A stretch of 29,424 nt of DNA. It comes from a virus. The position numbers were made by a program, and so were the translations under genes. The stretch is from IMG/VR virus record IMGVR_UViG_3300037153_000259, positions 1 through 29,424 of that record. The stretch is one strand, 5' to 3'. Below, piece by piece: positions 1,340 through 13,404 of the stretch (position 1 is its first letter; each line of letters opens with the position of its first letter). The notes under the pieces are model-generated. The model was not told the origin of the DNA and did no database searches. It saw only the letters and a list, made by a program, of their open reading frames with translations.

Positions 1340-1836
1340 GCGGCTGTCCTCCTGGAGTCGAAGAGTTCGCGGCCGTCGACCCACGCGTACAACTCACGTC
1401 GTGTCGTGAGGGAGGCCACTTCGTTGGCGGGCGCGGTCACGCGGGCGACGGACTGCGGCCCCGACAGCTTGACCCGCTGCTTGCCGCTGCGCTCTCCGGC
1501 GGCGAGGCCACGCAGGACGTAAGCGCCGCTGAGCGGATGGAGCCGGCGCTCGGAGTTCGGGCAGGTCGCCGCGTGGGCGAGGCAATAGTCGAAGAGCTCG
1601 AGCACGCGGCGCTGACCCGGTTTCAGCGCCATCCCCGGCTGCTTGTGCTCGACGAGGCGCAGCAGCGTTTCAGCACCGATCCACGTCGCCAGGTAGAGGT
1701 CGACGTCGCCGCAGGTGAACGTGTGCGGCAGGTGGAGGACGTACTGCCCGAACGCGGACGCCGACTCATAGCCGCGTCGGTGGTCGCGGTGGATCATCTC
1801 CTCGTCGCAACTGCGACAGAACGTCCGGCCGCACAT
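1336..1836 (-). CDS. PD-(D/E)XK-type nuclease with N-terminal cysteines
   Basis: A 166-aa protein. It starts with a Cys cluster (C2, C7, C10; 'MCGRTFCRSCDEE') that may bind zinc. It then shows a PD-(D/E)XK-like arrangement: 'CGDVDLYLATW' (D44/D46), a beta strand, and 'LLRLVEHKQPG' with E63-x-K65, followed by 'LKPGQRRVLELFDYC'. The 'EHKQPGxxLxPGQ' phrase is typical of phage nucleases that recognise DNA ends or junctions. The start ATG overlaps the methyltransferase stop (TGATG), and the stop overlaps the RecT-like start. Inference: it supplies the exonuclease or resolving activity for the adjacent annealing protein. A Holliday-junction resolvase is the main alternative. Confidence 0.6.
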   Translation of the reverse strand: MCGRTFCRSCDEEMIHRDHRRGYESASAFGQYVLHLPHTFTCGDVDLYLATWIGAETLLRLVEHKQPGMALKPGQRRVLELFDYCLAHAATCPNSERRLHPLSGAYVLRGLAAGERSGKQRVKLSGPQSVARVTAPANEVASLTTRRELYAWVDGRELFDSRRTAA

Positions 1837-2759
1837 CAGGCTGCGATCACCCCTGCTGCGCGCTCGGCGTCATCAGCTACGTCAGCGCCGAGCCAGCGGC
1901 GCCCCATCTCGGCGGCGATCCGTCCCCAGGCAGCGGTCCCGGCGAACGGGTCGATGATCCGCTCGCCAGGTTCGGTCAACTGCTCGATCAGGAACGTGAC
2001 GCCGGCTTCGCCCTGCGCCCACTTGCGTTCCTTGTCAGGGGCCACCGGTCGGAGTACGTCCGTCACGAGCGAACGACCGCGCCGGTAGTCCTTCACGTAC
2101 CAGAGCGCCGGCTTGAACTCGGCGACGACGAATTTGCCGGGTAGCCGTTGCCCTCGCGTGTGCAGCATCGAGAGCAGCCACCAGTAGCGGAGCCGCTCGC
2201 CGAAGATGCGCATGTCGCGATCGAGGCGCGCCTGGCCCGTGTAGACGATCAACGAGCCCCCCGGCAGCAGCACGCGCTCGGCCCACTCAGCGAGCCAGCG
2301 GTAGAGCGGCTCGGCCTCGTCGCCGTAGGGCGGGTCGGTCAGGATCAGCGGCACCGACGAGGCGGGCACGTCGGCGAGCACGTCGCGTGCGTCACCCTCG
2401 CGCAGCTCGAATCCGTCCTCGAGCTCAGGCGCGCTTCGGGAGATTTCCCGGCGCGACCGCGTCTCAGCCGCGCCCGCCAATTTCTTGGCATCGAGTCGGA
2501 GGGTCTCGCGGCTTACGCCGATGGCGCGGGCCGCTTGTTGCTTGGTGAAACCATCGGCTGCCAACTGTTTGGCAGCGCCGTGCCGCTCCTCGATCGAGAG
2601 GCGGACGTAGCCGCCCAGCCGCTGCTCGACCCATTCGCGGGTCGTGAGGCCGAGCGCGGCTGGCACGCCGAGCCGCTCGCCGAGCGCGACTTGCCGCCAG
2701 CTGCCGGCGACAACCTGGCCGAGCGCTTGGGTGTACTCCTCGGCGTCGGCCGCGTTCAT
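1836..2759 (-). CDS. DNA amino-methyltransferase (N6-A or N4-C), beta class, with N-terminal HTH
   Basis: A 307-aa protein. Residues about 55-95 contain a helix-turn-helix ('FTKQQAARAIGVSRETLRLD') after an 'LSIEERHGAAKQLAADG' helix, as in ParB/KorB-like specificity modules. The catalytic domain (about 115-300) has motif IV 'LILTDPPYGD' (DPPY at 142-145) before the SAM-binding motif 'DPFAGTAAWGRIA' (270-282). DPPY-first order defines beta-class exocyclic amino methyltransferases. No restriction partner is visible, so this is an orphan phage methylase. It could protect phage DNA from host restriction or have a regulatory role. ATG at 2759 overlaps the upstream stop (ATGA). The methylated base and target site cannot be read from sequence. 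Confidence 0.85.
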   Translation of the reverse strand: MNAADAEEYTQALGQVVAGSWRQVALGERLGVPAALGLTTREWVEQRLGGYVRLSIEERHGAAKQLAADGFTKQQAARAIGVSRETLRLDAKKLAGAAETRSRREISRSAPELEDGFELREGDARDVLADVPASSVPLILTDPPYGDEAEPLYRWLAEWAERVLLPGGSLIVYTGQARLDRDMRIFGERLRYWWLLSMLHTRGQRLPGKFVVAEFKPALWYVKDYRRGRSLVTDVLRPVAPDKERKWAQGEAGVTFLIEQLTEPGERIIDPFAGTAAWGRIAAEMGRRWLGADVADDAERAAGVIAA

Positions 2760-3942: not shown

Positions 3943-4130
3943 GCGGACTCCTCGACGATCTCGACGCCGAGCGTCTCGAGGAGCGCGACGATCGCGGCGC
4001 GCTTGCGCGCGTTCGCCGGCAGCCGATCGGCGGGGAAGCTGACCCGCAGGCCGCGCGACCAGCAGACGAGGATCTCGGCGGCGAGCACGCGCGACCACTC
4101 GTGGCCGTCCTGCGAGCCGACGGCGGGCAC
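3939..4130 (-). CDS. Hypothetical small protein
   Basis: A 63-aa protein. The preferred GTG at 4130-4128 forms a TAGTG stop/start junction with the upstream transglycosylase-like gene and has GGGAG about 9 nt upstream. GTGs at 4139 and 4145 are possible but overlap the upstream gene further. The sequence has 'LVCWSRGLRVSFPADRLPAN' and a C-terminal 'IVALLETLGVEIVEES' helix-strand. No recognised domain. Its place in the continuous overlap chain is the main evidence that it is a gene. Confidence 0.5.
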   Translation of the reverse strand: MPAVGSQDGHEWSRVLAAEILVCWSRGLRVSFPADRLPANARKRAAIVALLETLGVEIVEESA

Positions 4131-4672
4131 TAGCGGCACTCCCACTCGCCGCCGCGGCCGTGCGTGATCATCCAGCCGGCGGCGAGCGCGTTCGCGTAGG
4201 GGCTCCAGACCGAGAAGCGGCCGAACGGCGTCGACCGCCAGGTCGACGGGAGGAACTGCAGCAGGCCGCTCGCCCGCGAGCTCGCGTTGTAGGCGCGCGG
4301 CGAGAAGGTGCCGCCGGTCTCGCAGCGCGCCCTCCGCCAGAGCGTGTCACAGCTGCCGTAGACGACGCAGGCGAGGTTCAGCGCCTCTGCGACTGTCGGA
4401 CGGTGCTGGAGGGTGCGCGTGAGCTGCCGGGCGCGCCGGCGGGCTGCGAGGTAGCGGCGGTGCTCGAGCGCGAGCTTGCGGTGCAGGGCGGCGAGCGGGA
4501 GCTCGTGCTCGGCGAGGGGGGTCGCCGCCGGCGCCGGCGCCCCCGATGGCACCGGCGGCAGCGTGGCGGTCCCGTCGGGTCGCGGGTCGCGGCCGGAGGC
4601 GCGCAGGCTGAGCGCGAGCCAGACGACGATCGCGATCACGAGCAGGACGATCCAGGCGGCGGCGCGGCTCAG
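4130..4672 (-). CDS. Membrane-anchored lytic transglycosylase-like (SLT/RPF-type) enzyme
   Basis: From CTG at 4672 the protein is 180 aa and starts with a full transmembrane helix ('AAAWIVLLVIAIVVWLALSL'). A Pro/Ala linker and an Arg-rich helix follow, then a C-terminal muralytic domain: 'WRRARCETGGTFSPRAYN' with the probable catalytic Glu (E118 in this numbering; E107 from GTG 4639), 'SRASGLLQFLPSTWRSTPFG', 'SVWSPYANALAAGWMI' and 'GGEWEC'. This is the goose-lysozyme/SLT-like pattern of secreted actinobacterial peptidoglycan hydrolases. The conventional GTG at 4639 would leave only about 12 hydrophobic residues. The CTG overlaps the upstream TGA (CTGA). It lies in the early operon, far from the endolysin, so a role other than terminal lysis (DNA entry or wall remodelling) is possible. 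Confidence 0.7.
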   Translation of the reverse strand: MSRAAAWIVLLVIAIVVWLALSLRASGRDPRPDGTATLPPVPSGAPAPAATPLAEHELPLAALHRKLALEHRRYLAARRRARQLTRTLQHRPTVAEALNLACVVYGSCDTLWRRARCETGGTFSPRAYNASSRASGLLQFLPSTWRSTPFGRFSVWSPYANALAAGWMITHGRGGEWECR

Positions 4673-6003: not shown

Positions 6004-7053
6004 TCATTCGTCGACCCAGTCGAGCGGGTTCGGCATGTTCCGCTGGATCTCCGCGATCGCCCTTGCCCGGTCCAGGTGGATGTAGGTGTTCGCGGTTGTG
6101 GCGGGGTTGCGGTGGCGCATGAAATGCTGGGTCGCGACGAGGTCGTGGCCGGCCTGGTGGAAGTGGGTGCCGGCGGTGTGCCGCATCTCGTGCATCGGGA
6201 AGCGGTCGAGCCCGGCCCGGTCGAGGCACCGCCACCACCAGAGGTCGATCCCGCTCGGCGTGAACGGCCGCAGGCGGTCCTCCCAGATGACGCCGCGCTC
6301 CTGCAGCGGCCACGAGCCGCGCATGCCGGTCTTCTGCGGGTAGAGCAGGTACTCGTCGGACTGGCGCTGATCGAGCAGGATGTGCGCCTCGAGCTCGCCG
6401 GCGAGCTGCTCCGGGATGTTCTGCTCGGCCACCCGGCCGCCCTTCCCGTGGACGGTCATCCGCCGGTTGTGGAGATCAAAGTGGCCGATCTGCGCCTGCC
6501 GCAGCTCGTTCCGCCGCAGCGCGCACCAGTAGAGCGTGAGCAGAGCGGCCCGGTCGCGCCGCGAGTCCTGCCCGGAGATCAGCCGGAGGATCACCGACGC
6601 GGCGTGCGCGACCCGGTCGCTGTCGGGAACGCTCACGCGAGGGAGCCGGCGGGCCGGGTTCGCCGGGATCAGGTCGCTTTCGTGCGCCCAGGTGAAGAAG
6701 ACGCGGACGTTCGAGGTGTTCTGCCGGCGGGTCGCCGGTTTCGCGTCCCGCCAATGCTCGGTCAGGAAGCCGACCAAGTGCTCGGCGCGGACCTCGTCCG
6801 GCTCGAGGTGCGCGAGGTCCAACGCGAGCCACGCCAGCGTCTGCTCGCGGTTTTCGATCGTGCGTTCCTGCTGGCTCGCGAACGCGCACTCGTCGAGGTA
6901 GCGCCGGACGAGCTGGCCGATCGGCGTCGCCTGGTAGCTCTTGTCCTTCACAGCGGTTTCCCGGAGCCTCGCAGCTTCCGCTAGCAGCCAGCCCAGGTCA
7001 AACCGCACCCGGCCGTCGCCGCCGGTCAGGACCGGGTGCGGATCAATCGACAT
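6004..7053 (-). CDS. int: Tyrosine site-specific integrase
   Basis: A 349-aa phage integrase. An N-terminal arm/core-binding domain (about residues 40-135, SAM-like, 'TPIGQLVRRYLDECAF') precedes the catalytic domain. Catalytic residues are visible: R180 in 'CALRRNELRQ', K204 in 'VHGKGGRV', H288 and R291 in 'MHEMRHTAGTHFHQ', H314 in 'FMRHRNPATT' and nucleophile Y324 in 'NTYIHLDRA'. All are intact, so the enzyme should be active in integration and, with a partner, excision. ATG 7053 lies within an inverted repeat (7052-7067). The gene is 45 nt downstream of the small HTH gene and probably co-transcribed with it. This establishes a temperate lifestyle. Confidence 0.95.
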   Translation of the reverse strand: MSIDPHPVLTGGDGRVRFDLGWLLAEAARLRETAVKDKSYQATPIGQLVRRYLDECAFASQQERTIENREQTLAWLALDLAHLEPDEVRAEHLVGFLTEHWRDAKPATRRQNTSNVRVFFTWAHESDLIPANPARRLPRVSVPDSDRVAHAASVILRLISGQDSRRDRAALLTLYWCALRRNELRQAQIGHFDLHNRRMTVHGKGGRVAEQNIPEQLAGELEAHILLDQRQSDEYLLYPQKTGMRGSWPLQERGVIWEDRLRPFTPSGIDLWWWRCLDRAGLDRFPMHEMRHTAGTHFHQAGHDLVATQHFMRHRNPATTANTYIHLDRARAIAEIQRNMPNPLDWVDE

Positions 7054-7098: not shown

Positions 7099-7314
7099 TC
7101 ACTCGCCATCCTCCGCCACTGATCTCTCGCGGAAGAATCGTTCGAGGGCGCGGCGATGCTTGGGCCACGGGAACGTCGTTCCAGCCTCCCAGTTCTGAAG
7201 CGTCCGCTCGGAGATCCCCAGCCGATCGGCGGCTTCTCGTTGGCTCAGATGGAGACCGATGCGATGCGCTCGAAGGCGGGGCCCGAGATCGTCGCTGATG
7301 TCGATGAGAGCCAT
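7099..7314 (-). CDS. XRE-type HTH regulator (Cro- or Xis-like)
   Basis: A 71-aa protein. 'LHLSQREAADRLGISERTLQ' followed by 'NWEAGTTFPWPKHRRALERF' (residues about 22-60) is a textbook HTH_3 domain with almost nothing else attached, the size of Cro-like repressors. ATG 7314 diverges from the larger HTH gene at 7436 across a short operator region and reads toward the integrase. That position fits a Cro analogue or a regulator of integrase/excision. No separate MerR/AlpA-type excisionase is seen, so it may also serve that purpose; that is inference. Confidence 0.8.
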   Translation of the reverse strand: MALIDISDDLGPRLRAHRIGLHLSQREAADRLGISERTLQNWEAGTTFPWPKHRRALERFFRERSVAEDGE

Positions 7315-7762: not shown

Positions 7763-7816
7763 CGGTCGGCACAAGCGGAAACTCTCTCTGACTTTTTTGG
7801 CTCGCTTTGCCGACCG
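7763..7816. repeat. Imperfect inverted repeat with T-run in loop, downstream of repressor
   Basis: CGGTCGGCACAAGC (7763-7776) and GCTTTGCCGACCG (7804-7816) are near-complementary with one bulge, enclosing a 27-nt segment that contains TTTTTT (7793-7798). It begins 4 nt after the repressor stop. It could act as an attenuator or weak terminator, or be a DNA-binding site; a run of T inside the loop is not the classical terminator layout. Confidence 0.35.
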
Positions 7817-7898
7817 TGGCGCACGGGCGGCGGGCCCCTAGGCTTGCTCTTGCCGGCCGGTGAGCGTCCTTAGCCGGTACGTTCCCGGCCGGCTCTCC

Positions 7899-7928
7899 GC
7901 GAAAGATAATCCATGGATTATCTTTCGC
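7899..7928. promoter_or_regulatory. 30-bp perfect palindrome, probable operator
   Basis: The half-site GCGAAAGATAATCCA is followed immediately by its exact complement with no spacer, giving a 15+15 perfect palindrome. Its right end abuts the -10 box at 7929. It is strikingly AT-rich at the centre compared with its surroundings. The position over the -35 region of the nuclease-helicase operon indicates a repressor or activator operator specific to that operon. The same half-site was not noticed elsewhere in the window. Confidence 0.75.
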
Positions 7929-7934
7929 TATACT
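7929..7934 (+). promoter_or_regulatory. -10 element of the nuclease-helicase operon
   Basis: TATACT, close to the TATAAT/TANNNT consensus, lies 57 nt upstream of the ATG at 7991. The expected -35 position falls inside the palindrome and has no TTGACA-like hexamer, so the promoter may depend on the protein that binds the palindrome. The leader of about 50 nt carries a GGAGGA ribosome-binding site 8-9 nt before the ATG. Confidence 0.5.
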
Positions 7935-7990
7935 CCTGCGCACCTCGCGAGTGTTCGGTGGGGGAACCGGCTAGCCGGAGGAAGACAGAG

Positions 7991-10054
7991 ATGAGTACGA
8001 GTGACCGCTCGCGCGTGCCGCGAGCGCTGCGGGAGCGGGTGCTCGCGCGGTCCGAGGGCGTCTGCCAGTGCGTCGGTGTCTGCGGGCATCACGAGGCGCG
8101 CTGCACGACCGTGATCACGCTCGACGGGTTCCACCTCTCACATCTGCGCTCGCATGCGCACGGAGGGCCGTTGCACGAGACGAATCTCGAGGCATGGTGT
8201 TCTGCCTGCAATCTTGCTCTGAGCAGCCGGGACGCGGCCGACCCGCGGCTCCCGCCGCGGGAGTGGCAGCTGCGCGAGTTGAACGCGATCGTCGACGCGA
8301 TCAGCCGCACGAGCGCGGCGACGCTCTCGGCGGCGCCGGGATCGGGGAAGACGATCTTCGCCGGGCTCGTCTTCGAGGCTCTTCGCGACGCCGGGCTGGT
8401 CGAGCGGATGCTCGTTGTCGTTCCCCGCCGCGGCCTCGCCGAGCAGTGGGTCGAGGCTCTGACCGCGTCTCGCCATATCCAGCTCAAGCCGCACGCGGCG
8501 CTCGAGCGGCCCGGACAGGACGGCGTGGTTGTCACCTATCAGTCGCTCCCGAACCGTGACCAGCTCGAGGCGCATCTGATCAAGAGCCGCCAGGTGCCGA
8601 CGCTGCTCGCACTCGACGAGGTGCACCATCTCTCTCGCGACGCCGGAGGCATCCATCGCGCCTGGGGGAACGCGATCGCCGAGCTCGCCGGCGACGTCGA
8701 GACGGGCAACCTGAACGTCGCCGCGGTCCTGAACCTCTCCGGCACGCTCTGGCGGTCCAACAAGAGCGAGCGGATCTCGACGGTCCGCTACAGCCCACCC
8801 GACGACGACGGCAGGATCACCTCGCTCGTCGACGCCGAGGTGAGCGTGCAGGAGCTCGTCTACCGTGGCGAGCTGCGCTCCGTCGATCTCTACCGGCTCG
8901 ACGCGGAAGTGCGGATCGCGGATTACGCGGAGCTCGAGTACGTCGAGGGCAATCTGAGCGATCTCGACGAGCGGCCAGCGAAGGCGGCGCAGGCGGCGCT
9001 CGGGGCGATCGAGGAATGGCGGGAGGCGTTCGTCGCCTCGGTGCTCGATCGGCTCGAGCAGGCGCACCGCGCGCTCGGCGGCTACCACGTGAAAACGTTG
9101 ATCGTGGCCGCTCGCCAGGACCACGCTTCGCTCTTCCGTGACGAGGTTGACCGGCAGATGCGGACGCGCGGCCTGCAGCCGTTGGCCGCGCTCGCGGTCA
9201 GCCGCGACGAGGACGAGGCGCAACGAGCGCTCGAGAGCTTCCGGGCGCAGAAGCGTGTCGGGGTTCTCTGCACCGTCGACATGGCGGGCGAGGGCTACGA
9301 CTGTCCCGAGATCGCTGTGCTCGGCTACGCCTCGAACAAGCTGACCTCGCTCTACGTTCGCCAGGTGACCGCCCGGGCGATGCGCGTCACCGAGCGCGAG
9401 CGCGAGCTGGCAACGGTTCTGCCGGCAATGGTCGTCCTTCCCGACTCACCCGCGCTCGTGCGCGAGCTCGTTGCCTACATGGCTCCCTTCACGCACGAGG
9501 TGCTGCTCGAGGACGAGAGGCCCGATGCTGACGAGACAGGTGATGGCCCCTTCATCGTCGGGCCGCGGATGCAGCGCTTCGTCCTGACCGAGGCGCAGGC
9601 GGGCTCGGAACGGATCACCGTTTCCTTCCTCGACGGCACCGTCGAGAATCTTGACGACGAGCTGATCGTGGCGCTCCAGCCGCACCTCGAGCAGGCGAAC
9701 ATCCCCGAGGTCTACCGGCCGCGCGCAACGGGCGCCTACCAGCGAACGATCCGTGAGCTTCTGCGCGACCGGCCGTTTGACTTCGGAGGGCACGAACCCG
9801 GGCAGCGAGCGAAACCACAACGCACGGTGACTCTGGAGGGGCAGGCGCGGATGCTGCAGGAGCAATTGCAGAAGAAGGGCGGCTGGTGGGCGATCAACGG
9901 CAACACGCCCGTCGACCACTTCAATCACCTCATCAACGATCACGCCGGAATCGTGAACGGGCAGCGCGGCAACGCCAGCATCGAGCAGCTCGAGCGGGCG
10001 CTCGCGTTCGCGACCGAGACGATCGACGCCTACCGCAGGACGCAAAGCCGATGA
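7991..10054 (+). CDS. HNH nuclease-SF2 (DExH) helicase fusion
   Basis: A 687-aa protein. The N-terminus has Cys residues (C25, C27, C31, C38) and an HNH core: H51 in 'FHLSHLRSHAHGG', N65 in 'LHETNLEAWCSACN', with the C70-x-x-C73-N74 knuckle. A complete SF2 helicase follows: Walker A 'SAAPGSGKTIFAG' (117-121), DEVH 'LLALDEVHHLS' (209-212), 'NLSGT' (249-252), motif V 'MAGEGYDCPEI' (431-441) and motif VI 'VRQVTARAMRVTE' (457-468). The last 200 residues are unassigned. I start at 7991, which has a good ribosome-binding site, not at 7913 inside the palindrome. The TGA overlaps the next ATG (ATGA). The architecture suggests ATP-driven DNA translocation coupled to cutting, as in restriction-like defence; I know no named system with this exact pair. 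Confidence 0.85.
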   Translation: MSTSDRSRVPRALRERVLARSEGVCQCVGVCGHHEARCTTVITLDGFHLSHLRSHAHGGPLHETNLEAWCSACNLALSSRDAADPRLPPREWQLRELNAIVDAISRTSAATLSAAPGSGKTIFAGLVFEALRDAGLVERMLVVVPRRGLAEQWVEALTASRHIQLKPHAALERPGQDGVVVTYQSLPNRDQLEAHLIKSRQVPTLLALDEVHHLSRDAGGIHRAWGNAIAELAGDVETGNLNVAAVLNLSGTLWRSNKSERISTVRYSPPDDDGRITSLVDAEVSVQELVYRGELRSVDLYRLDAEVRIADYAELEYVEGNLSDLDERPAKAAQAALGAIEEWREAFVASVLDRLEQAHRALGGYHVKTLIVAARQDHASLFRDEVDRQMRTRGLQPLAALAVSRDEDEAQRALESFRAQKRVGVLCTVDMAGEGYDCPEIAVLGYASNKLTSLYVRQVTARAMRVTERERELATVLPAMVVLPDSPALVRELVAYMAPFTHEVLLEDERPDADETGDGPFIVGPRMQRFVLTEAQAGSERITVSFLDGTVENLDDELIVALQPHLEQANIPEVYRPRATGAYQRTIRELLRDRPFDFGGHEPGQRAKPQRTVTLEGQARMLQEQLQKKGGWWAINGNTPVDHFNHLINDHAGIVNGQRGNASIEQLERALAFATETIDAYRRTQSR

Positions 10055-10818
10055 GCAGCAGCCCGTTCCTTGACGTGGCCGGCGAGAGGGTCGTCCGCTT
10101 CATGAGCGAGGCGCGCAACCTGACCCGGATCGGAGAGCTCACAGACGAGGTCGTCGCGATTGCCGAGTCGGGCGCATGGCGCCGCTACAAGACCGCGCTC
10201 GGCGTCGACGAGTGGCGTGAGCGCGAGCTCGACTACTTCCTGATCGCCTCCGAGATCGGTTGGGATGACGCGGCCCGCGTGATCGCCTACACGCGGAAGA
10301 GCAACGAGCTCGTCGGGATGATGGACCCGAACGCTCCGACCAAAGCCAGGCGCACGCTCGAAGAGGCCTCCGCCGCCTGGCATGCACCAGGCCCGGAGAC
10401 GCTCCTGGAGCGGGCCGTCAGACTCGGCTGGGCGAAACCCGACGGGTCGACACGCCGGCCGCCCGTCTCACCGCGTTCGCTCGCGAAATACGCGCGCGGC
10501 GGTCAGGAGCCAGAAGAGCACGCGCGCACGCAACGGGCCCTTCACATCACCGCGAAGCGCCGTCGTGAGCTGGATGCGCTCGCCAAGCGCGTCCGCGTCG
10601 AGCTCGCCGACGACCTCGAACGCCGCTACCTGCTCGACCGGCTCCGTGCAACCGACGGTGCCGGGCGGCCACGGACGAGCAGCACACACCTCGATGCCTG
10701 GCGCGCTGACGCCGAGCGGCTCAATTGGGAGACGGCTGAGCTCGCGAAGCACTGGGGCGTTACGCCGCAAGCAGCGCGAGCTCGCGTGCGGCGGCTGCGC
10801 GAAGGAAAAGCAAAATGA
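10051..10818 (+). CDS. Helicase-partner protein with C-terminal HTH
   Basis: A 255-aa, mostly helical and basic protein overlapping the nuclease-helicase stop by ATGA, so almost certainly co-translated with it. The N-terminal half includes 'GAWRRYKTALGVDEWREREL' and 'SEIGWDDAARVIAYTRKSNE'. The end, 'WETAELAKHWGVTPQAARAR' (about 226-245), looks like a winged or simple helix-turn-helix. No catalytic motif is seen. Likely jobs are DNA recognition or specificity for the helicase, or regulation of the operon through the upstream palindrome. No family recognised. It ends 5 nt before the convergent holin-like gene. Confidence 0.7.
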   Translation: MSSSPFLDVAGERVVRFMSEARNLTRIGELTDEVVAIAESGAWRRYKTALGVDEWRERELDYFLIASEIGWDDAARVIAYTRKSNELVGMMDPNAPTKARRTLEEASAAWHAPGPETLLERAVRLGWAKPDGSTRRPPVSPRSLAKYARGGQEPEEHARTQRALHITAKRRRELDALAKRVRVELADDLERRYLLDRLRATDGAGRPRTSSTHLDAWRADAERLNWETAELAKHWGVTPQAARARVRRLREGKAK

Positions 10819-10823
10819 TTCCA

Positions 10824-11117
10824 TCATTCGCGCGGCCACTGGCCGGGCGGCAGCTCGTGGACGCGCCGGCGGGCCCGGGTGAGGAGCACGAGCCCGACGG
10901 CGACGAGCGCGTAGGCGGCGAGCGTGCCGACCCGGTACCAGTCTGAGACGTCGCGGTCGAGGTCGAGCCAGGCGTTGACGACGACGCTGACGGCGAGGCC
11001 GGCGCCGATCACGCCGTAGGCGGTGCGCGCCTGCGGTTCGAAGCGGAGCGTGTAGCTCGCCGAGTAGAAGAGGCTGCCGACGAGGAAGCCGCCGATCGCG
11101 AGGTAGGCCCAGGTCAC
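10824..11117 (-). CDS. Small membrane protein, holin-like, three helices
   Basis: A 97-aa protein from GTG 11117, which overlaps the TGA of the gene before it (GTGA). Three hydrophobic segments are visible, at about residues 4-22 ('AYLAIGGFLVGSLFYSASY'), 33-51 and 63-81 ('VGTLAAYALVAVGLVLLT'), followed by a basic tail 'RARRRVHELPPGQW'. Size, topology and position at the end of the late operon after endolysin and another membrane protein suggest a holin or antiholin. Sequence families for holins are too diverse to be certain. Confidence 0.6.
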   Translation of the reverse strand: MTWAYLAIGGFLVGSLFYSASYTLRFEPQARTAYGVIGAGLAVSVVVNAWLDLDRDVSDWYRVGTLAAYALVAVGLVLLTRARRRVHELPPGQWPRE

Positions 11118-11370: not shown

Positions 11371-11389
11371 GCGAGCCTGACTAGCTCGC
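11371..11389 (+). repeat. Small hairpin preceding the terminator
   Basis: GCGAGC-CTGACTA-GCTCGC, a six-base perfect stem with a 7-nt loop, lies 6 nt before the terminator hairpin at 11396. Two consecutive hairpins in a 138-nt non-coding gap hint at a structured plus-strand RNA. Confidence 0.4.
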
Positions 11390-11395
11390 GCGAAT

Positions 11396-11419
11396 CGAGC
11401 CCCGCTTCGGCGGGGCTCG
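11396..11419 (+). terminator. Intrinsic terminator hairpin with UUCG loop
   Basis: CGAGCCCCGC-TTCG-GCGGGGCTCG: a ten-base perfect stem closed by a C(UUCG)G tetraloop on the plus strand, followed by a T-rich TCGTTTCT. The loop and the tail favour termination of plus-strand transcription. On the minus strand the loop is CGAA with no T tract, but the hairpin lies 6 nt after the endolysin stop and may still mark the end of that message. It would stop read-through from the plus-strand cassette before the endolysin gene. Confidence 0.75.
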
Positions 11420-11425
11420 TCGTTT

Positions 11426-12997
11426 CTACGACTCCTGGACACGGACGAAGACGGTTCCCTGGTCGTTGCGGTTCCGGGTTCGGCGGCACACTTGTCCGCC
11501 GTTGCTCTGGCTTCCGCCCGATCCTTCGGGACTAGTGTTCCCCTCCAGCGTGCTCAACGTGCCGTAGTGGTCGGGCGCCGTCTCTACGATCCCGACGTGG
11601 TCGTACTCGCCGTCGCGAGCCCAGTCGAAGCAGACGAGGTCGCCCGGCTTCGGTGAGCTGGTGACGCTGAGCCCGTTGTAGCCGAGGCGGGCGTCCGAGA
11701 CGATGTAGGGGACGTAGGCGTAGCGGCTGCCTTTCACGAACGAGCGGGTCGGGTGGCCGCCCATCTGGTCGCAGTAGGTGACAAAGACGGCGCACCAGGG
11801 GCCGGTCATCGGGTACCAGGGCGTAAACGGCGGGCAGACGTTCGAGTTGGGCGGGTTCTCCTTGACGCCGATGTACGTCTTCGCCTTCGCTAGCCGAGCA
11901 TGCGCCGAACTCGAGCTCGACGGGGGCGGCGGCTCCTTGCCTTTGAAGCGGTCCCAGGCGGCGTTCACGAGCTCGACCGAGCGGGCGTCCATTGCCATCT
12001 CCCCGGCGTGCGGCAGACCCTCGGGCACCCGGATCGACCGGAGCGTGTTGAACGTCTTCTCGCCGATCCAGCCGCTGTCGGGGCTGATCTTCTGCTGGCG
12101 TTGGACGCCGGCGACTCCGGTGTCGATCACGTTGCCGGACTTGCCGTGCGCGAAGCCGTTGGAGTAGGCCTGGTCGAACGGCTGCCATTTCCACCGGCCG
12201 GCCCGTGAGACGGTCCGCTTGTACGCCTCGACGTCGGGGCCGTCGACGGACGGTTTCTTGCCTTGGGAGGCGGCGTCGGGCGGGTACAGCGGGCGGGGGA
12301 AGCCTTTGACGGCGACCATCGGGCCTCCTTTGTAGGCGTGCGTCCACCAGTCGGGGTCGCTCGGCGGCGGCTCCGGCTGCGGCGGCGGAGCCGCCGTTCT
12401 CCGAGCGAGCTCGTCCCAGTCGGCGTCGGTCATCGTCTCGGCGTTCCAGACGTTGAACCCCGGCCCGAGCTCCGGGTAGCCGGAGAGGGGGTAGCCGCCG
12501 TAGGCGCCGAGGCACGGGCTTGCGACCTGGTAGCCGCGCGCGAGCGCGTCGGCACGCATCTGCACCGGGTCGATGTTCGGCTGGTCTGAGCGGTAGCACT
12601 CGGGCAGGCAGGCGAACCCGGCCGCCTGCAGCAGGTCGTCGTCGAGCCCCTCGAAGTTCGTGACGACCGCGGCCTCGAGGCCGCCGAGGTTGAGGATGAT
12701 CCCTTCCCAGTCGGGCCGGTAGCCCTCGCTCTCGGCGATGTAGAACGCCGGCGCGAGCCGCACGATCTGGCTGGTGCGCCAGGCGTCGGGGTCGGAGTCC
12801 CAGACGCCGAACGCGACGCCGGCGCCGTGGCAGGTGTCGGCGAGCTCCTCGAGGTTGTCGATGTTGTCGTCGTACCATTGGCCGGCGACCCAGGCGGCGC
12901 CGTAGTCGACGCAGCGGCGCACCAGCTTGTCGGCGGGCAGCTCGCCGTGGACCATGCCCCAGGTCGAGAAGACGCCGGGCCGCTCGAAGACGCTCAT
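11426..12997 (-). CDS. Multidomain endolysin with C-terminal CHAP domain
   Basis: A 523-aa protein. Residues about 8-200 ('GVFSTWGMVHGELPADKLVR', 'GVAFGVWDSDPDAW', 'GGYPLSGYPELGPGFNVWNA') look like an alpha/beta-barrel glycosidase-like domain. A Pro-rich linker leads to a peptidoglycan-binding-like segment (about 255-325, 'VAGVQRQQKISPDSGWIGEK'). A second linker (PPPPSSSSS) leads to a CHAP amidase/endopeptidase domain with C402 in 'GPWCAVFVTYC', H467 in 'EYDHVGIVE' and N487 in 'TLEGNTSP'. ATG 12997 overlaps the upstream stop (ATGA). It degrades host peptidoglycan at the end of infection. The CHAP assignment is firm; the barrel's catalytic activity is uncertain. Confidence 0.88.
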   Translation of the reverse strand: MSVFERPGVFSTWGMVHGELPADKLVRRCVDYGAAWVAGQWYDDNIDNLEELADTCHGAGVAFGVWDSDPDAWRTSQIVRLAPAFYIAESEGYRPDWEGIILNLGGLEAAVVTNFEGLDDDLLQAAGFACLPECYRSDQPNIDPVQMRADALARGYQVASPCLGAYGGYPLSGYPELGPGFNVWNAETMTDADWDELARRTAAPPPQPEPPPSDPDWWTHAYKGGPMVAVKGFPRPLYPPDAASQGKKPSVDGPDVEAYKRTVSRAGRWKWQPFDQAYSNGFAHGKSGNVIDTGVAGVQRQQKISPDSGWIGEKTFNTLRSIRVPEGLPHAGEMAMDARSVELVNAAWDRFKGKEPPPPSSSSSAHARLAKAKTYIGVKENPPNSNVCPPFTPWYPMTGPWCAVFVTYCDQMGGHPTRSFVKGSRYAYVPYIVSDARLGYNGLSVTSSPKPGDLVCFDWARDGEYDHVGIVETAPDHYGTLSTLEGNTSPEGSGGSQSNGGQVCRRTRNRNDQGTVFVRVQES

Positions 12998-13404
12998 GGC
13001 TCGGCCGGGGTCAGGAAGGCGGGCGGCGGCGGGATCGTCACCGAGGGCGCGTCGGGCGGTGTCGGCCAGGCGAGCTCGGTCGGGTCGTCGCCCTGGTCGG
13101 GCAGGTCGCGCAGCGCCTGCCGGTAGTCGGCCCAGGCTTGCGCGTTCGCGTCGATCTCGCCGTCGACGTCGTCGGGGAGGTCGGGCGGCTTGGTGCCGAG
13201 CCAGTCGGTCGCGGAGAGCTGCGCGCCACGGGCGCGCCGCACCTCGTCCCACTGCTGCGCGGCGAGCTCGGCGGCGGCTGCTTCGCTCGCTGCGGCTTGC
13301 GCGGTGAGCTCGTCGCGTGTCAGCGGCACGAGCTCGGGCTCGGGCCAGGCGCCGGTCTCGGGGTCGGGCGGTTGCGAGCAGTCGATCACGGCCTTGTTGG
13401 GCAT
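12994..13404 (-). CDS. Tail-fiber assembly / tail assembly chaperone-like protein
   Basis: A 136-aa protein from ATG 13404 with a GGAAGGGGAG ribosome-binding site. After an N-terminal strand region it has a helical 'ELAAQQWDEVRRARGAQLSA', then 'TDWLGTKPPDLPDD' and 'AWADYRQALRDLPDQGDDPT', ending 'LAWPTPPDAPSVTIPPPPAF'. The WDxVRxxRxxxLxxTDW...W..YRQALRDLP...WP.PP pattern is characteristic of phage tail-fiber assembly or tail-associated chaperone proteins. Its location directly after the fiber-like gene agrees. Confidence 0.75.
   Translation of the reverse strand: MPNKAVIDCSQPPDPETGAWPEPELVPLTRDELTAQAAASEAAAAELAAQQWDEVRRARGAQLSATDWLGTKPPDLPDDVDGEIDANAQAWADYRQALRDLPDQGDDPTELAWPTPPDAPSVTIPPPPAFLTPAEP

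Follow-up and report, generated by a model that had tools for sequence, protein, structure and literature searches.

We describe a two-gene cassette, carried by a temperate soil phage, in which a protein fusing an HNH nuclease to an SF2 helicase is encoded directly upstream of a rapidly diverging partner. The two genes apparently form a genuine two-gene family without a name, and the cassette is accessory, not core, in temperate phages. We put at roughly one half the probability that it acts as a methyltransferase-free restriction-like barrier of temperate phages and plasmids against competing DNA.

A nuclease-helicase gene and its partner in a temperate soil phage

The window, meaning the whole stretch of DNA analysed, is a virus record of 29,424 bases from a temperate soil phage (Table 1). 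Matches identified its terminase, endolysin, integrase and repressor-like HTH genes; portal, capsid, tail and RecT-like genes were recognised by eye. The terminase shares 43% identity with that of Streptomyces phage Kromp. The initial annotation had placed the cassette on the plus strand between the repressor and the lysis genes, and this arrangement held: a repressor-like HTH_3 gene lies upstream and an endolysin downstream, while the minus strand carries 98% of the window's coding bases once repressor and cassette are set aside. The early region also encodes a lytic-transglycosylase-like protein (4130-4639, minus strand, read by eye), distant from the lysis genes.

Table 1. Features of the cassette and its surroundings, in window coordinates
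Feature	Position	Strand	Remarks
Tyrosine integrase	6004..7053	-	Phage_integrase 4e-19; marks a temperate phage
Small HTH protein, Cro/Xis-like	7099..7314	-	Divergent from the repressor; profile match
HTH_3 protein, probable phage repressor	7358..7759	+	6.3e-10; 5' of the cassette on the same strand
Perfect 30-bp palindrome GCGAAAGATAATCCATGGATTATCTTTCGC, likely operator	7899..7928	.	Unique in the window
TATACT, possible -10 hexamer	7929..7934	+	Adjoins the palindrome; inferred; without a matching -35
Ribosome-binding site GGAGGA of the helicase gene	7977..7982	+	Read from sequence
HNH-SF2 helicase fusion, 687 aa	7991..10054	+	HNH about aa 1-80; SF2 core aa 85-495
Partner protein, 255 aa	10051..10818	+	Conserved N-terminal domain, variable middle, optional C-terminal HTH
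Small membrane protein, possible holin (weak)	10824..11117	-	Phage_holin_2 E 0.6
Endolysin	11426..12997	-	Actinomyces and Bifidobacterium phage lysins, 35-44% over the C-terminal domain

The 687-residue reading frame lies where it had been annotated, and both halves of the proposed fusion were borne out. The HNH domain is weak in a single-sequence Pfam search (PF01844, E 0.019, below cut-off) and clear in PHROGs (8.9e-6). Across 18 aligned close relatives (mean identity 46%), C25, H51, G59, N65, C70, C73 and N74 are invariant, among them the residues first read as HNH (H51, N65, C70, C73 and N74), and the zinc cysteine C38 is kept in 17; both the zinc cysteines and the H-N-N/H catalytic triad are present. 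The helicase domain matches ResIII (3.3e-13), and the same relatives show no variation in motifs I, II, III, V and VI, including K120, D209-E210-V-H212, SGT 250-252, E434/G435/D437 and Q458/R462/R465, in agreement with its annotation as a full DExH SF2 helicase. As judged from these alignments, the invariant catalytic residues argue for a working nuclease joined to a working motor. The C-terminal region (residues 500-687) is variable. An alternative, longer helicase reading frame from 7913 starts within the palindrome and has no ribosome-binding site. At one related locus (L023, 7992-10123) the helicase gene is broken into two overlapping frames, by frameshift or assembly error, and the partner is intact.

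No sequence relatives of the HNH-SF2 protein were found in the PDB at E 0.01. In its AlphaFold model (pLDDT 82) the SF2 core has RadD as its nearest fold (Z 20.5 over 338 residues, rmsd 3.9, about 17% identity; Foldseek 1e-13), followed by XPB-Bax1 (Z ~18), with XPB, Mfd, SNF2-type motors and the type ISP enzyme LlaBIII (Z 17.3) as further structural neighbours; HsdR is also among the Foldseek matches.

The partner gene starts within the helicase stop codon through an ATGA overlap of 4 bp, bearing out the annotated translational coupling. Its product, modelled at pLDDT 89 and mainly helical, carries a conserved N-terminal motif (W43..Y46..E59-D61-Y-F-L), and conservation drops from 0.40 at the N-terminus to 0.17 at the C-terminus. 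The initial annotation had the partner ending in an HTH. A weak HTH_AsnC match (0.0012) and predicted terminal helices (211-223, 228-235 and 239-254) favour this for the window protein; within the family the HTH is dispensable, being missing in about 7 of 18 partners, several of which end ahead of it. In L006 (5750-5960) the partner ends before the HTH, and the small ORF that follows and overlaps it ends like an HTH, as if the HTH had split off. Foldseek returned no match to the partner, its N-terminal domain included, at E below 0.1 in the PDB or in BFVD, a set of viral predicted structures; a partner-profile search of PDB sequences at E 1 and PADLOC likewise gave no match.

The cassette had also been credited with its own promoter and operator. 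The operator part corresponds to the perfect palindrome, a likely operator, and the evidence for the promoter is only suggestive: TATACT adjoins the palindrome, but a sigma-70 scan returned no site, TATACT included. Dyads of differing sequence occupy a similar place in L005, L006 and L025. The palindrome core is absent from viral_contigs, and an operator sequence common to the loci was rejected, since the dyads do not agree from locus to locus. Between repressor and cassette (7763-7830) lies a long, imperfect inverted repeat, CGGTCGGCACAAGCG ... CGCTTTGCCGACCG, whose loop contains a T-run; by eye it is not a canonical terminator.

Pairing, divergence and accessory status of the two genes

Scans with the HNH-SF2 protein and a family profile yielded loci in viral records, plus five in three MAGs. 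Both genes are adjacent and in order in every one of these close loci (branch A), with a homologous partner directly downstream of the helicase in 19/19, and a search with the partner profile alone recovered the helicase every time while gaining further loci. More distant helicases, on Streptomyces plasmids and in phage PIS136, share 27-30% identity, retain the HNH and have a small protein of another type next to them downstream. Scanning with this second partner type gave seven more viral loci, each with a family helicase directly upstream; the HNH motif was seen in six, and L070 ends at a contig edge. Together, the Streptomyces plasmids, phage PIS136 and viral contigs make up branch B, in which the partner is directly downstream in 11/11 loci. 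Homologues of the pair thus always co-occurred, the question on which the initial annotation had asked for a tally. Most pairs overlap by 1-25 bp, and the pairwise identities of helicase and partner correlate (Mantel r 0.74 in branch A and 0.76 in branch B, p<0.001). Compared by hhalign, the two partner types gave a marginal, non-significant match (E 0.005, probability 7%); an N-terminal W-x2-[YF] motif suggests that they may be related.

Alleles of the cassette also change amid conserved neighbours, a pattern reminiscent of conflict genes. A Microbacteriaceae MAG (G013, 1.6 Mb) holds four related copies (L016, L017, L018 and L060) with helicases about 80% identical, and the main difference among them is the C-terminal half of the L016 partner, which is unrelated to that of the other three. 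All four have a divergent XRE repressor upstream of the cassette and an Xis-like HTH gene downstream, and in L060 an integrase starts near the contig end; they may represent small integrative elements or phages of one family. The same MAG also holds two contigs (L061 and L062) that have flanks 88-97% identical around unrelated HNH-helicase/partner alleles. These are nearly identical phage-like contigs with the alleles at the same site, and the final part of the partner is common to both. Such replacement fits a change of defence specificity, but also exchange of a replication module.

The initial annotation regarded the cassette as an accessory gene pair and named as its alternative a core replication helicase conserved in all related phages; the evidence sides with accessory status. 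Carriers span three terminase families (phrog_2, phrog_9 and phrog_15). In 7/11 branch-A phages the strand opposite the cassette holds more than 80% of the remaining coding bases; around the cassette this share is 82-100% in the window and in L004, L005, L006, L007, L008 and L021, and over whole contigs it is 99% in G002, 95% in G003, 92% in G004 and 97% in G005. In G004 the cassette is flanked by repressor and integrase, in G006 it adjoins an integrase, and in L015 and L020 an integrase is nearby. A tail-protein search for relatives of the window phage found none, and the empty-site comparison therefore rests on another carrier, G009, and its sister phage L071, which are syntenic, with terminases 70% and portals 69% identical. 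Between terminase and portal, G009 has about 5.8 kb including the cassette, and L071 about 1.3 kb without it. Neither cassette gene occurred in any of 80 TerL-related loci, so that in this one testable lineage the helicase is not conserved across related phages.

Outside mobile elements the family is sparse. The close branch was found in 0/991 other (non-seed) bacterial genomes sampled from three phyla, and the distant-branch partner in 2/396 Actinomycetota genomes; in these samples of 991 and 396 genomes the family is not common in bacterial genomes or defence islands. There is no methyltransferase inside the cassette, and none is conserved around it: among 12 carriers, whose records may be fragments, PF01555 was matched in two, PF00145 in none and phrog_67 in two. 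In its early region (1836-2759, minus strand) the window encodes an orphan DNA methyltransferase of the DPPY type, HTH-like at its N-terminus, and G003 has an HNH-methyltransferase fusion (11371-13068); most carriers have no methyltransferase. Directly 3' of the cassette in L020 (10982-11812, plus strand) is a gene with an anti-restriction PHROG match (phrog_7245, 1.3e-9).

Comparison with known systems

The combination had been put forward as unlike named systems, and our searches agree: PADLOC-DB 2.0.0, Pfam, NCBIfam and the PDB contained no whole-length match to the cassette, and the nearest relatives are the helicase modules of PbeA, HsdR and RadD. No published description of the gene pair was found in a literature covered mostly outside subscription journals. 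Hachiman consists of a HamA nuclease and a HamB helicase as separate proteins, and its two-gene logic of nuclease plus SF2 helicase resembles the cassette; the PADLOC matches listed included no Hachiman model.

In PADLOC the HNH-SF2 protein gave short local helicase matches only, with PbeA models at residues 85-162, and the PbeA helicase profile matched 21/21 family members tested. In PbeABCD, a CxC-ABC ATPase/DndE system, PbeA joins an HKD nuclease to an SF2 helicase, and its associates include a small protein that evolves fast along with other components (PMC6459918, PMC10853773). The cassette likewise has an N-terminal nuclease fused to a ResIII-type SF2 helicase and a fast-evolving small partner, but its nuclease is an HNH whereas that of PbeA is of the HKD (PLD) type. 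Moreover, PbeA acts together with PbeB, PbeC, PbeD and Dnd modification genes, none of which was recognised beside the cassette; gene maps place just two genes in the cassette, the CxC ABC-ATPase PbeC and PbeD/DndE having been sought among neighbours that were scanned in part.

The HsdR/Res subunits of Type I and III restriction-modification systems and the Type ISP enzyme LlaBIII also carry nuclease and SF2 translocase on one chain, and their SF2 cores align structurally with that of the cassette. The cassette shares with Type I and III systems an SF2 translocase with all motifs; however, the HsdR/Res nuclease is a PD-(D/E)XK enzyme, and the HNH-bearing cassette has no conserved methyltransferase or specificity subunit. 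In anatomy, then, the cassette resembles PbeA or HsdR, and it is a member of neither system. RadD and XPB-Bax1 are the nearest SF2 folds, and XPB-Bax1 is also a collaboration of helicase and nuclease, but neither is paired with the cassette's partner and RadD is not an HNH fusion.

Possible roles of the cassette

On present sequence evidence an anti-phage defence role is plausible. A restriction-like barrier is supported by two genes that always occur and diverge together, by their intact catalytic sites, by the cassette's accessory status and allele replacement, by a nuclease-plus-SF2 layout as in PbeA with a core that aligns to HsdR and LlaBIII, and by the anti-restriction-like gene that follows the cassette in L020. 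In the mechanism we infer, the partner would use its variable C-terminal half to sense some feature of foreign DNA, whether incoming or replicating, and would recruit or license the HNH-SF2 protein; the SF2 motor would travel along the duplex with ATP, and the HNH site would nick or cut it. If expressed in the lysogen under a control region of its own, the cassette would shield the prophage's host from superinfection. More tentatively, with a probability below even, the family may be a new kind of methyltransferase-free restriction confined almost wholly to mobile elements and serving conflict of phage with phage or plasmid, in which a partner with a swapped recognition half would aim the HNH-SF2 motor.

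Against a general defence system stand the absence of the close branch from all 991 sampled genomes, unlike most defence systems, and the lack of any visible component for self/non-self discrimination or conserved methyltransferase. RadD, the top structural neighbour, is moreover a repair helicase, and SF2 cores predict role poorly. The main rival, which we consider rather unlikely, draws on this likeness: the cassette would be an accessory module of phage DNA metabolism whose HNH-SF2 protein, loaded by the partner, remodels and cuts forks or recombination intermediates in the manner of RadD or XPB-Bax1, aiding lytic replication or recombination. Branch-B pairs often lie in replication/recombination operons (L061, L066, L068 and L069), beside RecT and exonuclease genes (read by eye), SSB in L061 (also by eye), a phage replisome organiser in L069 (PF09681, 2.2e-4) and DnaB in L068, which likewise counts against defence, and a DnaB match over the cut-off in 0/12 carriers also favours such a module. 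Set against it are the cassette's orientation, opposite to that of the lytic operons in most carriers of branch A, its absence from the sister phage, three branch-A carriers with their own replication initiator apart from the cassette, and rapid allele replacement amid conserved neighbours.

Tight gene coupling, the HTH of many partners, dyads near the promoter in several loci and carriage on plasmids would suit a toxin-antitoxin or addiction pair, in which the HNH-helicase would harm host DNA unless restrained by a partner whose HTH represses the operon through the palindrome. We find this improbable, as so many partners have no HTH, a helicase-nuclease of 690 residues is unlike known toxins, and the promoter dyads have no common sequence. 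Still slighter is the chance of a selfish homing-type cassette whose HNH enzyme drives its own spread between phages: the HNH domain, scattered insertion sites and allele replacement at one site are compatible with it, but the insertion sites differ wholly between phages, and a full SF2 motor and a second gene are kept in every copy.

If the cassette is indeed a restriction-like barrier, it would be a compact one of two genes, able to distinguish self from non-self independently of DNA methylation. Its setting, temperate phages of actinobacteria (and their relatives) from soil and freshwater, is one with few known prophage defences. Both its specificity and its function can be tested directly, given the natural allele pairs and a sister phage free of the cassette.
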